The translations under genes and the position numbers were made by a program. Positions 57,525 to 60,265 of a stretch of 64,000 bases of DNA are shown piece by piece. The notes under the pieces are model-generated. The model was not told the DNA's origin and did not search any database. It saw only the letters and a program-made list of their open reading frames with translations. The first letter of the stretch is position 1, and each line of letters begins with the position of its first letter. The DNA is from Ruegeria arenilitoris (GTDB taxonomy: Bacteria > Pseudomonadota > Alphaproteobacteria > Rhodobacterales > Rhodobacteraceae): contig NZ_WPZQ01000004.1 of the NCBI RefSeq assembly GCF_013030265.1, forward strand, positions 186,001 through 250,000, read 5' to 3'.

Positions 57525-59042
57525 ATGACGAACATGTCGGGCAGAGTTTTTGTTATTCCCGGGACGTCTGATGCTGGTCAGTTGGGCAAGCTGGAAAAAC
57601 TATCCGTCAAACTTGAGGCAAAAATCTCAGAGAGACCATTCAAACTTCTGGATTGCCATGATCAGTCGCTGCGTACCTCTGGACGGCTTCTGATCGAAAC
57701 CAGTGGCTTGCTGCATCTGGTTCAGCGAGATGTCGGCGTTATTTCGCAAAAGGCCAAAGGGAATGGTAAGTTTACTCAGGAATTACCCGAAGGTCCTGTG
57801 CGCAGTGCATTGGCTAAATTCCCCAAATTACGAGCGTTAACAGTTCTGGGCGATGGTCGGGTAGAAACCCGCTCGCTCTCGGTATTGGATGAACTCCAAA
57901 AAACGCAAGTGCGTGGAACCGTTATGGCGCTCACCAGTACACAAGGTGCCGCTACGATCGTTTGGTTGCACCATCTGCGCGGATACGACCGGGCATACAG
58001 CAAAACCTGTGCGGCGATGTCAGAGCTTGGCCACGCTGATCGCGGTCTTGAACCACTGTTTCAGACACTTTTCCCTGATCTTGAGCGATATCAGGCCAAA
58101 CCGCATATCCCGCTGGGCCACGAAGAACACGCAATTGAAGCGGCTGGCGATATCATTCGGACCTTCCTGCACGTTGCCCGGCAGAACGAAGAAGGGGTTA
58201 TCGCGGATATCGACACTGAATTTCTGCATGATTACCGCGTCTCACTACGACGAATTCGGTCAGTACTCAGCTTGTTCAAAGGTGTATTCTCAGAAGAGCA
58301 GACCGCAGAGTTGAAACGCACGTTTTCTGATCTGATGGCACCTACCGGTCGCTTGCGCGATCTGGATGTATATCTTCTGGATAAAGAGATTTATTTCAGC
58401 ATGTTGCCGACCTCTCTTCACGTCGGTGTGCAGAAGATGATGGATCAGTTTGAGCGAGAGCGAACCCAGGAACTATCACGCTTGTCCCGCAGGTTTCGAA
58501 GCAAATCTTATGTCGAAACGATGGATGCGCTAGCTGAGCAGTTTCAGGGTCTTTCTGATCTGCAGGCTGGTCCGAATGCAGACCGTGGTGCCTACGAATA
58601 TGCATGTGCTCTGATCTGGAAACGGTATCGCAAGGTCTGCAAACTTGCCCGCAGCATTACCGCCGATACCCCGGACGAAGCAGTTCATGAACTGCGCATC
58701 GATTGTAAAAAGCTACGTTATCTGATGGAGTTTTTTGCGCCTTTGTTTGATGCGAGAGCTTTCAAAACGATCATCAAGCCATTGAAAAAGCTTCAGGATA
58801 ATCTCGGGCTCTTCAATGACTATTCTGTGCAGCAAGAAGCTTTGTTGGAATTCGCCGATCAAAGAAGCAACGCAACCGCACGGATAGATGCCGAATTGGG
58901 GATGGCCGTTGGCGGGCTGATTGCAGGGTTGGACCAAAGGCAAAAAGCTGAACGTGACCGCGTGATTTCGAATTTCGAACACTTTGACGGACCGCAAATT
59001 CGAGACCTGTTCCGCAGTTTGTTTCATGCGTCGGGGGATTAA
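57525..59042 (+). CDS. CHAD domain protein with degenerate CYTH-like N-terminus
   Basis: 505 residues, no signal peptide or membrane helix. Residues ~200-495 are a CHAD domain (conserved-histidine alpha-helical), with the conserved His/Arg helices EFLHDYRVSLRRIRSVLSLF and AVHELRIDCKKLRYLMEFF and many basic residues facing a central channel. CHAD proteins are known to bind polyphosphate. Residues ~30-160 (KLLDCHDQSLRTSGRLLIE, LRALTVLGDGRVETRSL) follow the CYTH strand pattern but lack the acidic and basic catalytic residues. It begins a three-gene operon, 3 bp upstream of parA. AGGGCAGG precedes the start. Confidence 0.88.
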   Translation: MTNMSGRVFVIPGTSDAGQLGKLEKLSVKLEAKISERPFKLLDCHDQSLRTSGRLLIETSGLLHLVQRDVGVISQKAKGNGKFTQELPEGPVRSALAKFPKLRALTVLGDGRVETRSLSVLDELQKTQVRGTVMALTSTQGAATIVWLHHLRGYDRAYSKTCAAMSELGHADRGLEPLFQTLFPDLERYQAKPHIPLGHEEHAIEAAGDIIRTFLHVARQNEEGVIADIDTEFLHDYRVSLRRIRSVLSLFKGVFSEEQTAELKRTFSDLMAPTGRLRDLDVYLLDKEIYFSMLPTSLHVGVQKMMDQFERERTQELSRLSRRFRSKSYVETMDALAEQFQGLSDLQAGPNADRGAYEYACALIWKRYRKVCKLARSITADTPDEAVHELRIDCKKLRYLMEFFAPLFDARAFKTIIKPLKKLQDNLGLFNDYSVQQEALLEFADQRSNATARIDAELGMAVGGLIAGLDQRQKAERDRVISNFEHFDGPQIRDLFRSLFHASGD

Positions 59043-59045
59043 GGA

Positions 59046-59801
59046 ATGAAGATCATTGCCTGCTACAGCAACAAGGGCGGTGTCGGCAAAACCGCCACTT
59101 CGGTCAATTTGGCCTACGAGTTTGCGCAAGCCGGGCAACGCGTGTTGTTGTGCGATTTGGATCCGCAGGGGGCCTCGGGGTTCTACTTACGGATCAAGCC
59201 ATCGAAAAAGCTGACTGAGGCACGGTTCTTCGAGGATGTGAAACGCTTTACCAAAGCGATCCGGGCAAGTGATTTTGAAGGTTTGGACGTACTTCCAGCC
59301 AATCTAACGTTTCGTGATTTCGACGTGTTTCTGTCCCGAATGCGGAACAAACGATCACGGTTGAAGAAGGCTCTGCAATCAGTTGGTGGCGATTATGATG
59401 TGATCGTTCTGGATTGTCCTCCGAACTTCTCGACACTGTCTGAGAACATTTTCAAGGCTGCGGATATGATCGTTGTGCCGGTTATCCCCAGTACTCTTTC
59501 AGAGCGTACATTCGAACAGTTGGTTGGATTCTTTGATGAAAACCGGTTGCCTAAAAAGAAGCTACGCGCGTTTTTCTCAATGGTCCAACGACGCAAAACC
59601 ATGCATCTGGACACGATGAAGGCTATGCGAAAACTCTATCGAAAGAGATTCCTAAAAACCTGCGTGCCGTTTGCTGCAGATATTGAGCGGATGGGGCAGT
59701 ACCGGGCTCCGGTGTGCACATTTGCCGGGCGCAGTCCTGCAGCGAAGGCCTACAGATCGCTGTTCAACGAACTCGAGAATGGATTGGTGTCTGCCAAATG
59801 A
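59046..59801 (+). CDS. ParA-family ATPase
   Basis: 251 residues. It has the deviant Walker A of ParA/MinD proteins (SNKGGVGKTATSVNL, with both lysines), Walker A' DLDPQGAS, and Walker B VIVLDCPPNFSTLSENIF. Such ATPases dimerise with ATP, coat the nucleoid or membrane and position cargo. There is no helix-turn-helix and no parB nearby, so it is not a plasmid or chromosome partition set. It lies 3 bp after the CHAD gene and overlaps the CYTH gene by 4 bp (ATGA). The natural cargo would be bound through the CHAD protein. The basic C-terminal third could contact DNA. Confidence 0.92.
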   Translation: MKIIACYSNKGGVGKTATSVNLAYEFAQAGQRVLLCDLDPQGASGFYLRIKPSKKLTEARFFEDVKRFTKAIRASDFEGLDVLPANLTFRDFDVFLSRMRNKRSRLKKALQSVGGDYDVIVLDCPPNFSTLSENIFKAADMIVVPVIPSTLSERTFEQLVGFFDENRLPKKKLRAFFSMVQRRKTMHLDTMKAMRKLYRKRFLKTCVPFAADIERMGQYRAPVCTFAGRSPAAKAYRSLFNELENGLVSAK

Positions 59802-60265
59802 GCAAGGAAATCGAACGCAAATTCCTCGTATCTGAATTGCCAGATTTGAACGAGGCCAAGAAAGCAGTTGTGAGGCAAGGTTACCTGACTGCGCCCGAGG
59901 ATTCGACAGAGCTGCGCCTGCGCCAAAAGAACGACAGCTTTTTTCTAACCCTCAAAGGCAGTGGTGGCTTGGTTCGTGTCGAGCGTGAAGCCGAAATCTC
60001 GGAACAGCAATTTGGGACGTTTTGGCCCGAGACTGAGGGGCGTCGGGTCGAGAAGGAGCGTTTCACGGGCAGACTGCCCGGTGGTCTGAGCTTTGAACTA
60101 GATGTGTTTCAGGGAGATCTGTCACCGCTGCGCTTGGTTGAAGTCGAGTTTGCCTCGGAAACTGAGGCGCATGAATTTGTTCCGCCCGAGTGGTTCGGCG
60201 AGGATGTCACCGAAGACAAACGCTATAAGAACAAAAACATGGCGATCAATGGTATCCCTTCCTAG
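59798..60265 (+). CDS. CYTH domain protein (triphosphate tunnel enzyme)
   Basis: 155 residues from ATG at 59798, which overlaps the parA stop. It carries the canonical EIERKFLV signature, TELRLRQKNDSFFLTLKG, RVEREAEIS and LRLVEVEFASETEA, so the acidic and basic residues of the tunnel are intact. CYTH enzymes hydrolyse or bind triphosphates and inorganic tri- or polyphosphate; adenylate cyclase activity is the other family option. In this operon with a CHAD protein, inorganic tri/polyphosphate is the likely ligand. It ends sharing a CTAG with the convergent histidine kinase gene (4-bp overlap). Confidence 0.92.
   Translation: MSKEIERKFLVSELPDLNEAKKAVVRQGYLTAPEDSTELRLRQKNDSFFLTLKGSGGLVRVEREAEISEQQFGTFWPETEGRRVEKERFTGRLPGGLSFELDVFQGDLSPLRLVEVEFASETEAHEFVPPEWFGEDVTEDKRYKNKNMAINGIPS

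Follow-up and report, generated by a model that had tools for sequence, protein, structure and literature searches.

Several described systems resemble the operon discussed here, which encodes a CHAD protein, a ParA-type ATPase and a CYTH protein at positions 57,525 to 60,265 of a 64,000-nucleotide stretch of Ruegeria arenilitoris DNA (contig NZ_WPZQ01000004.1, positions 186,001 to 250,000; this whole stretch is called the window in the following). In McdAB, a ParA-type ATPase and an adaptor handle a non-DNA cargo in a nucleoid-based manner (PMC13052382, PMC10241942). However, the partner in our operon is a CHAD protein and not McdB, no carboxysome genes were found among the neighbouring open reading frames examined, and the Walker A motif listed for McdA is SGGQGKT (PMC9178275) while that of the operon ParA is KGGVGKT. 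The operon shares a Soj-type ParA with the ParABS systems, but it does not contain parB, and a separate parAB pair is encoded elsewhere in the genome. AlgP of Pseudomonas aeruginosa acts on the even spacing of polyphosphate (polyP) granules (PMC9239181, PMC13052382), but it is a histone-H1-like DNA-binding protein, with neither a ParA ATPase nor a CHAD domain. The phosins and other CHAD proteins (R. eutropha, CtCHAD, YgiF) have a CHAD domain with the same conserved polyP-contact residues, but the available parts of the reports on them mention no ParA partner, and YgiF is a reported tripolyphosphatase (PMC3440374) whereas the ParA-linked CHAD proteins have lost the ExExK motif. NeuTTM has its Tyr/Lys dyad in common with our CYTH protein, which differs in being encoded third in one operon with CHAD and ParA. 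Finally, folD-ppk-parA-CHAD clusters of Acidithiobacillus, in which parA has ppk and a CYTH/CHAD gene as neighbours, are already in print (PMC10892726, PMC6416229). They concern one genus and are discussed for copper resistance or cAMP signalling, and positioning is not mentioned in the accessible sections of either paper. The claim of the initial annotation that no system of this composition had been described therefore has to be qualified for the gene cluster, which was given other interpretations there.

By computation we establish the linkage of the CHAD and ParA genes, the conservation of their residues, their folds, and their association with polyP enzymes. The CHAD-ParA pair is a real and widely conserved module, and this module is firmly associated with polyP. 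On balance we favour the interpretation that it is a cargo-positioning pair for polyP granules, in which the CHAD protein would be the adaptor. At the locus, the genes for the CHAD protein (57,525-59,042), the ParA (59,046-59,801) and the CYTH protein (59,798-60,265) are all open and intact, lie on the forward strand, and are spaced by +3 and -4 bp. Coordinates, reading frames, and Pfam matches agree with the tight three-gene operon that had been annotated. All Pfam matches exceed the curated cut-offs (CHAD 8e-60, AAA_31 4e-40, CYTH 2e-7), the CHAD domain (PF05235) scoring 203 bits where 25.6 are required. The absence of a parB gene from the operon was likewise borne out, the Pfam matches of the neighbours placing CHAD upstream and CYTH downstream of ParA. 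A gidA-gidB-parA-parB cluster, named by eye, is found elsewhere in the same genome (L245), and the operon ParA is therefore an additional ParA and not the chromosomal one.

Within the genus, the gene order is strictly kept wherever the ParA is present. The genus set comprised 25 genomes (our own and 24 others), and orthologous ParAs were defined by an identity of at least 78%. Such an orthologue is encoded in 18 genomes, and all 18, the window included, have the order CHAD-ParA-CYTH together with a convergent kinase, so that the order cannot be due to chance. Among these orthologues, ParA is better conserved (78-86% identity) than CHAD (59-67%). At the family level (248 genomes), a close ParA was found in 19 genomes including our own (E-values up to 1e-45), and the CHAD gene is located directly upstream of ParA in every one of the 18 other Rhodobacteraceae matches. 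At the class level (385 genomes), 16 loci match ParA at 1e-35. Four of them have CHAD next to ParA, and these, our own included, are the four with E-values below 1e-80. Similarly, 76 of 398 Pseudomonadota genomes match ParA, and CHAD is adjacent in 7 of the 30 loci fetched, including all five with E-values below 1e-80. In the same 398 genomes the two families co-occur (CHAD in 60 of 76 genomes with ParA vs 142 of 322 without, Fisher 4e-8), a value to be taken with caution because the lineages are not independent.

Judging from the names of the records, the pair extends beyond the Pseudomonadota. The GTDB loci analysed are the best 80 of at least 522 confirmed matches in named genomes, and 58 of these 80 have a CHAD gene directly upstream on the same strand, a share that is not unbiased and favours linked loci because the query alignment consisted of CHAD-linked ParAs only and the best matches were taken. 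Sixteen of the remaining loci have no CHAD gene nearby, three are cut by contig ends, and three have CHAD on the opposite strand. In these last three, the Halomonas loci L188, L199, and L211, the CHAD gene is found downstream of ParA on the opposite strand and not upstream on the same strand. By phylum name, the 58 linked records belong to the Pseudomonadota (41), Actinomycetota (10), Chloroflexota (2), Acidobacteriota (1), Dormiibacterota (1), and Dadabacteria (1, filed by NCBI under Thermodesulfobacteriota), with two unassigned. Many are metagenome bins, and the assignments to Chloroflexota, Acidobacteriota, Dormiibacterota, and Dadabacteria rest on binning because all linked records there are of this kind. 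Linked pairs are also present in the cultured Methylotuvimicrobium buryatense, Nitrosomonas marina, and Thalassobaculum litoreum. In a tree of 151 ParA sequences, made by a quick method and containing some long branches, the linked/orphan label changes 11 times compared to a mean of 43.7 after shuffling. This is consistent with an old linkage to CHAD that was lost at times, for example among the Methylococcaceae. Thus, conservation of the order beyond the single strain is evident at all these levels.

The third gene is a different matter. CYTH adjoins ParA in 11 of the 18 other Rhodobacteraceae matches and not in the other seven, and only three of the best 80 GTDB loci have a CYTH gene. CYTH was thus rejected as a core component; it is optional, and therefore the unit is CHAD-ParA with CYTH as an accessory. 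Of the three-gene unit originally described, the CHAD-ParA part holds and the fixed membership of CYTH does not. In three alphaproteobacterial CHAD-ParA loci (L082, L083, L096), CYTH is adjacent but on the opposite strand. Plasmids also carry the pair: among nine plasmid matches, of which four were opened, two Paracoccus plasmids have the order CHAD-ParA-CYTH-Nudix. No CHAD is annotated near the ParA of the Marinobacter plasmid pMAQU02, and the Pontibacter plasmid record ends 53 bases upstream of ParA.

The initial annotation had suggested a link to polyP, and two lines of evidence, the polyP enzymes recurring beside the pair and the polyP-contact residues kept in the CHAD proteins, argue for it. 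Genes for polyP kinases (PPK) were located first with motif patterns and afterwards through sequence similarity, an approach that may have missed some of them. PPK1 or PPK2 is encoded in the fetched DNA (9 kb on average) of 7 of the best 80 GTDB ParA loci, five times together with CHAD (L150, L158, L186, L208, L220) and twice without it (L209, L223); the calls for L158, L186, L208, L223, and the PPK2 of L150 were checked with Pfam. About 0.7 such loci would be expected under the assumption of roughly four PPK genes in every 4.5 Mb of genome, which gives a Poisson probability of about 1e-5, or about 1e-3 if the rate is doubled. Locus L158 has the gene order PPK1-CHAD-ParA; it also encodes a PhoR-type sensor and, on the opposite strand, a CYTH protein. 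In two loci without CHAD, polyP genes adjoin ParA. In an acidobacterial locus (L223:5001-10151), ParA stands in tandem with CYTH and faces PPK1 and PPX, and in Marinobacter sp. 1-4A (L209:5007-8043) PPK1 follows immediately downstream on the opposite strand. SixA-type phosphatases were found in 15 of 100 loci (the best 80 GTDB loci and 20 others), and Nudix genes in others. The scan of neighbouring genes took in 51 of the 58 linked loci; three without a suitable open reading frame and four exceeding 900 residues were left out. An ATP-grasp protein, an HprK-related kinase B, and a PhoU-APH protein (the GAK set) occur together in four loci (L123, L131, L136, L210), and a partial set, the kinase together with SixA-Nudix and histidine phosphatase genes, in L135. 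The GAK family names were searched directly for L136 and assigned by similarity for the other loci. The GAK genes beside CHAD-ParA could be a clue that this unexplained system acts on polyP; a narrow literature search found no paper on it.

The second line of evidence comes from the CHAD protein itself, which has 505 residues and is a predicted polyP-binding adaptor. Its CHAD domain (residues 210-440; 58,152-58,844) can be aligned to CtCHAD of Chlorobium, in which mutations of individual residues weaken polyP binding (PMC6537752). By spacing on the alignment, these polyP-contact positions correspond to H235, R238, R242, R278, R398, Y399, and K421, and all seven are retained in 34 or 35 of the 35 proteins of alignment A4, which contains the window protein and 34 of the 55 ParA-linked CHAD proteins (the loci with a full CHAD gene among the 58 linked ones; L176, L195, and L203 have partial genes). 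CtCHAD R438 corresponds to K418, which is variable in the family, and the back-side residues R385, K386, K389, and K390 were left unmapped. The AlphaFold2 model of the protein (pLDDT 90.2, pTM 0.88) matches polyP-bound CtCHAD (6qv7/6qva) in Foldseek, and also the TTM (triphosphate-tunnel) folds of YgiF, ThTPase, and class IV cyclases. Judging from the lengths and folds, it is presumably the C-terminal part of the model that matches the CHAD structure and the N-terminal part that matches the TTM folds. The localisation of CHAD proteins to polyP granules, and a shift of the granules to the cell poles upon over-expression, have been described (Tumlirsch & Jendrossek, as told in PMC6537752).

In addition to the CHAD domain that had been annotated, the protein has a degenerate TTM domain of its own at the N-terminus (approximately residues 1-205; 57,525-58,139). 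ExExK is absent from this domain, which is predicted not to be a catalyst and is a candidate region for the interaction with ParA. The ParA-linked proteins were compared to 26 hand-picked CHAD proteins not located beside ParA, of which 20, with long frames and from different families, were taken from 202 genomes and six from elsewhere. When one rule is applied to both sets, a single protein among the 55 ParA-linked ones has ExExK ahead of the CHAD domain, compared to 24 of 26 others. In this exception (L221) the motif is off-site, 170 residues beyond the start codon we chose and in a later part of the protein, and the comparison proteins without it are L059 and L060, the latter being short. 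When the start of the tunnel domain was inspected by eye, the ratio was 0 of 55 to 23 of 26, L240 having EIELT at this place. A further 46 loci, two of them without ParA, contain one ExExK string (L079, frame position 79), which was discounted as off-site. This distribution of the motif sets the ParA-linked CHAD proteins apart as a subfamily of their own, whose enzyme domain has probably taken on another role.

The stand-alone CYTH protein of 155 residues, in contrast, is predicted to be a tripolyphosphatase. It matches the NE1496 structure 2fbl with an E-value of 9e-55, and we take NE1496 to be NeuTTM, the CYTH tripolyphosphatase of Nitrosomonas europaea. It has the ExExK motif as EIERK, and Y29 and K53 align to the Tyr28/Lys52 dyad of NeuTTM, the numbering being shifted by one according to the alignment (PMC3440374).

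The ParA has 251 residues and the sequence signature of its family. The deviant Walker A motif KGGxxK[ST] with its signature lysine defines the ParA/MinD ATPases (PMC9178275), and the operon ParA has this motif as well as the Walker B aspartate. Residues K10, K15, T16, D39, and D123 are invariant in 25 aligned ParA sequences (alignment A5). The closest solved structures are of the ParA/Soj type, and MinD types score far lower.

From these data we infer that CHAD and ParA contact each other, that the operon ParA binds the nucleoid, and that granules are positioned as a result. The C-terminal CHAD domain would dock on polyP, and the N-terminal TTM fold, with its catalytic motif lost, would be the likely contact to ParA. 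Upon ATP binding, ParA would dimerise and bind to the nucleoid, a CHAD-coated granule would trigger its release, and the granules would track the resulting ParA gradients. In this way, granules could be spaced, kept apart, and divided between the daughter cells. At this locus the neighbouring CYTH, and at others SixA, Nudix, PPK, or GAK genes, may handle phosphate products or granule turnover.

Several observations weigh against positioning of polyP granules by CHAD-ParA. ParA partner proteins are described as having a basic, disordered N-terminus (PMC10241942), and the genome's own ParB starts with a basic stretch, but no such peptide was found in the 55 ParA-linked CHAD proteins with the start codons we chose. 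The first 20 residues have a median net charge of -1 (at least +3 in 3 of 55; 0 in the window protein). The last 20 residues have a median of +2 and reach at least +3 in 26 of 55, which does not make them a firm replacement. Because the basic N-terminus is absent, contact would need another surface, for example the TTM domain or the C-terminal tail. ParA is missing from 7 of the 25 genus genomes. One of these (G016) retains CHAD beside the kinase (L044) without a ParA orthologue and without a CYTH match; another (G024) has a CHAD protein of 41% identity, G006 yields no more than a weak CHAD match, and four have none. ParA relatives without CHAD nearby are common (16 of the best 80 GTDB, 23 of 30 phylum-level, and 12 of 16 class-level loci), and the linked share among the GTDB loci is biased as described. 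In Ralstonia, deletion of the CHAD proteins, which need not be ParA-linked, is reported to cause no obvious phenotype (PMC6537752), and the literature searched contains no experiment on a CHAD-ParA pair. Lastly, PPK1 was found in none of 16 genus genomes (our own and 15 congeners). However, PPK2 is encoded in all 16 by three to five genes, three in our own genome, and a PPK2 homologue of Silicibacter pomeroyi that resembles Escherichia coli PPK1 in its properties has been proposed to make polyP (PMC3163519). Therefore, the missing PPK1 does not exclude polyP granules in this organism. A further PPK2 class (E-values 9e-83 to 1e-80) is present in 10 of 11 genus genomes with the operon but in none of five without it (Fisher 0.0014, with lineage effects possible), and our own genome is the one operon genome lacking it.

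The main alternative is that, instead of positioning a cargo, ParA serves polyP metabolism as an assembly factor or switch that depends on nucleotide and acts via CHAD on PPK, CYTH, or enzymes at the granule surface, similar to BcsQ. ParA-family members with metabolic partners do exist, such as BcsQ in cellulose synthesis (PMC9178275), and both the recurrence of polyP enzymes in ParA loci and the lack of a basic N-terminal adaptor peptide in CHAD would fit. We nevertheless regard this as unlikely, because the best structure matches are of the ParA/Soj type with MinD types far lower, and because the signature lysine and the Walker residues are invariant as in positioning ATPases. It is even harder to imagine that ParA positions or tethers another cargo, such as DNA or some metabolic complex, with CHAD just providing a link to the phosphate status. 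Many close ParA relatives are indeed orphans in unrelated contexts, but PPK1, PPX, and CYTH adjoin ParA even in the absence of CHAD (L209, L223), which renders this explanation quite improbable. For Acidithiobacillus, a CYTH-CHAD gene located close to ppk and parA has been proposed in print to encode a polyP-regulated adenylate cyclase (PMC6416229), and the CYTH-fold/CHAD protein could by analogy be a cyclase or another signalling enzyme, with ParA being incidental. However, neither the window protein nor any of the 55 ParA-linked proteins has the ExExK motif at its expected position, a set to which the Acidithiobacillus protein does not belong, and a cyclase here is thus highly improbable. 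That the three genes are mere operon neighbours lacking a common function, as the incomplete CYTH linkage (11 of 18) and the CHAD genes without ParA in G016 and G024 might suggest, is scarcely credible given that the CHAD-ParA order reappears in records named as six phyla even though the genes around the pair differ.

Some further features of the surroundings should be mentioned. Upstream of the operon, Pfam matches identify a P450, a TfoX_C protein, and NDK; downstream follow a convergent sensor kinase and response regulator, and a protease is also among the neighbours (these read by eye). Three genus genomes encode a second, orphan ParA that is 61-64% identical to that of the window (L032:4875-5648, L033, L034), and in L032 and L033 it adjoins a gene read as gyrA. 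No CHAD gene was found in the stretches fetched around these three and around L035. On the Marinobacter plasmid pMAQU02 (L144:1673-6747), a ParA relative of 37% identity is located near phbB and pyruvate kinase, which possibly represents another storage-granule context.

Placed in a wider frame, the CHAD-ParA pair might represent an ancient system for partitioning polyP condensates in many phyla. The dead TTM domain would be the adaptor that activates ParA, CHAD the anchor, and the swappable CYTH, SixA-Nudix, PPK, or GAK proteins would trim or modify the granule carried over the nucleoid. We propose this full scenario tentatively and with a little less than even confidence. A search by title and start of the abstract, in literature mostly without subscription papers and without bioRxiv preprints, found no description of a CHAD-ParA pair as a positioning system. 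According to the accessible part of a 2025 review on organelle positioning, the proteins positioning polyP granules in Caulobacter have not been identified, and AlgP of Pseudomonas is the sole polyP-granule positioning protein named there, and no ParA is named for polyP (PMC13052382). The CHAD-ParA pair is therefore a concrete candidate for granule positioning in the bacteria that carry it, and because linked pairs occur in cultured bacteria the question is open to work at the bench. If the interpretation is true, a condensate of an inorganic polymer would join the cargos of ParA ATPases, and some of the "orphan" ParAs would gain a likely cargo.

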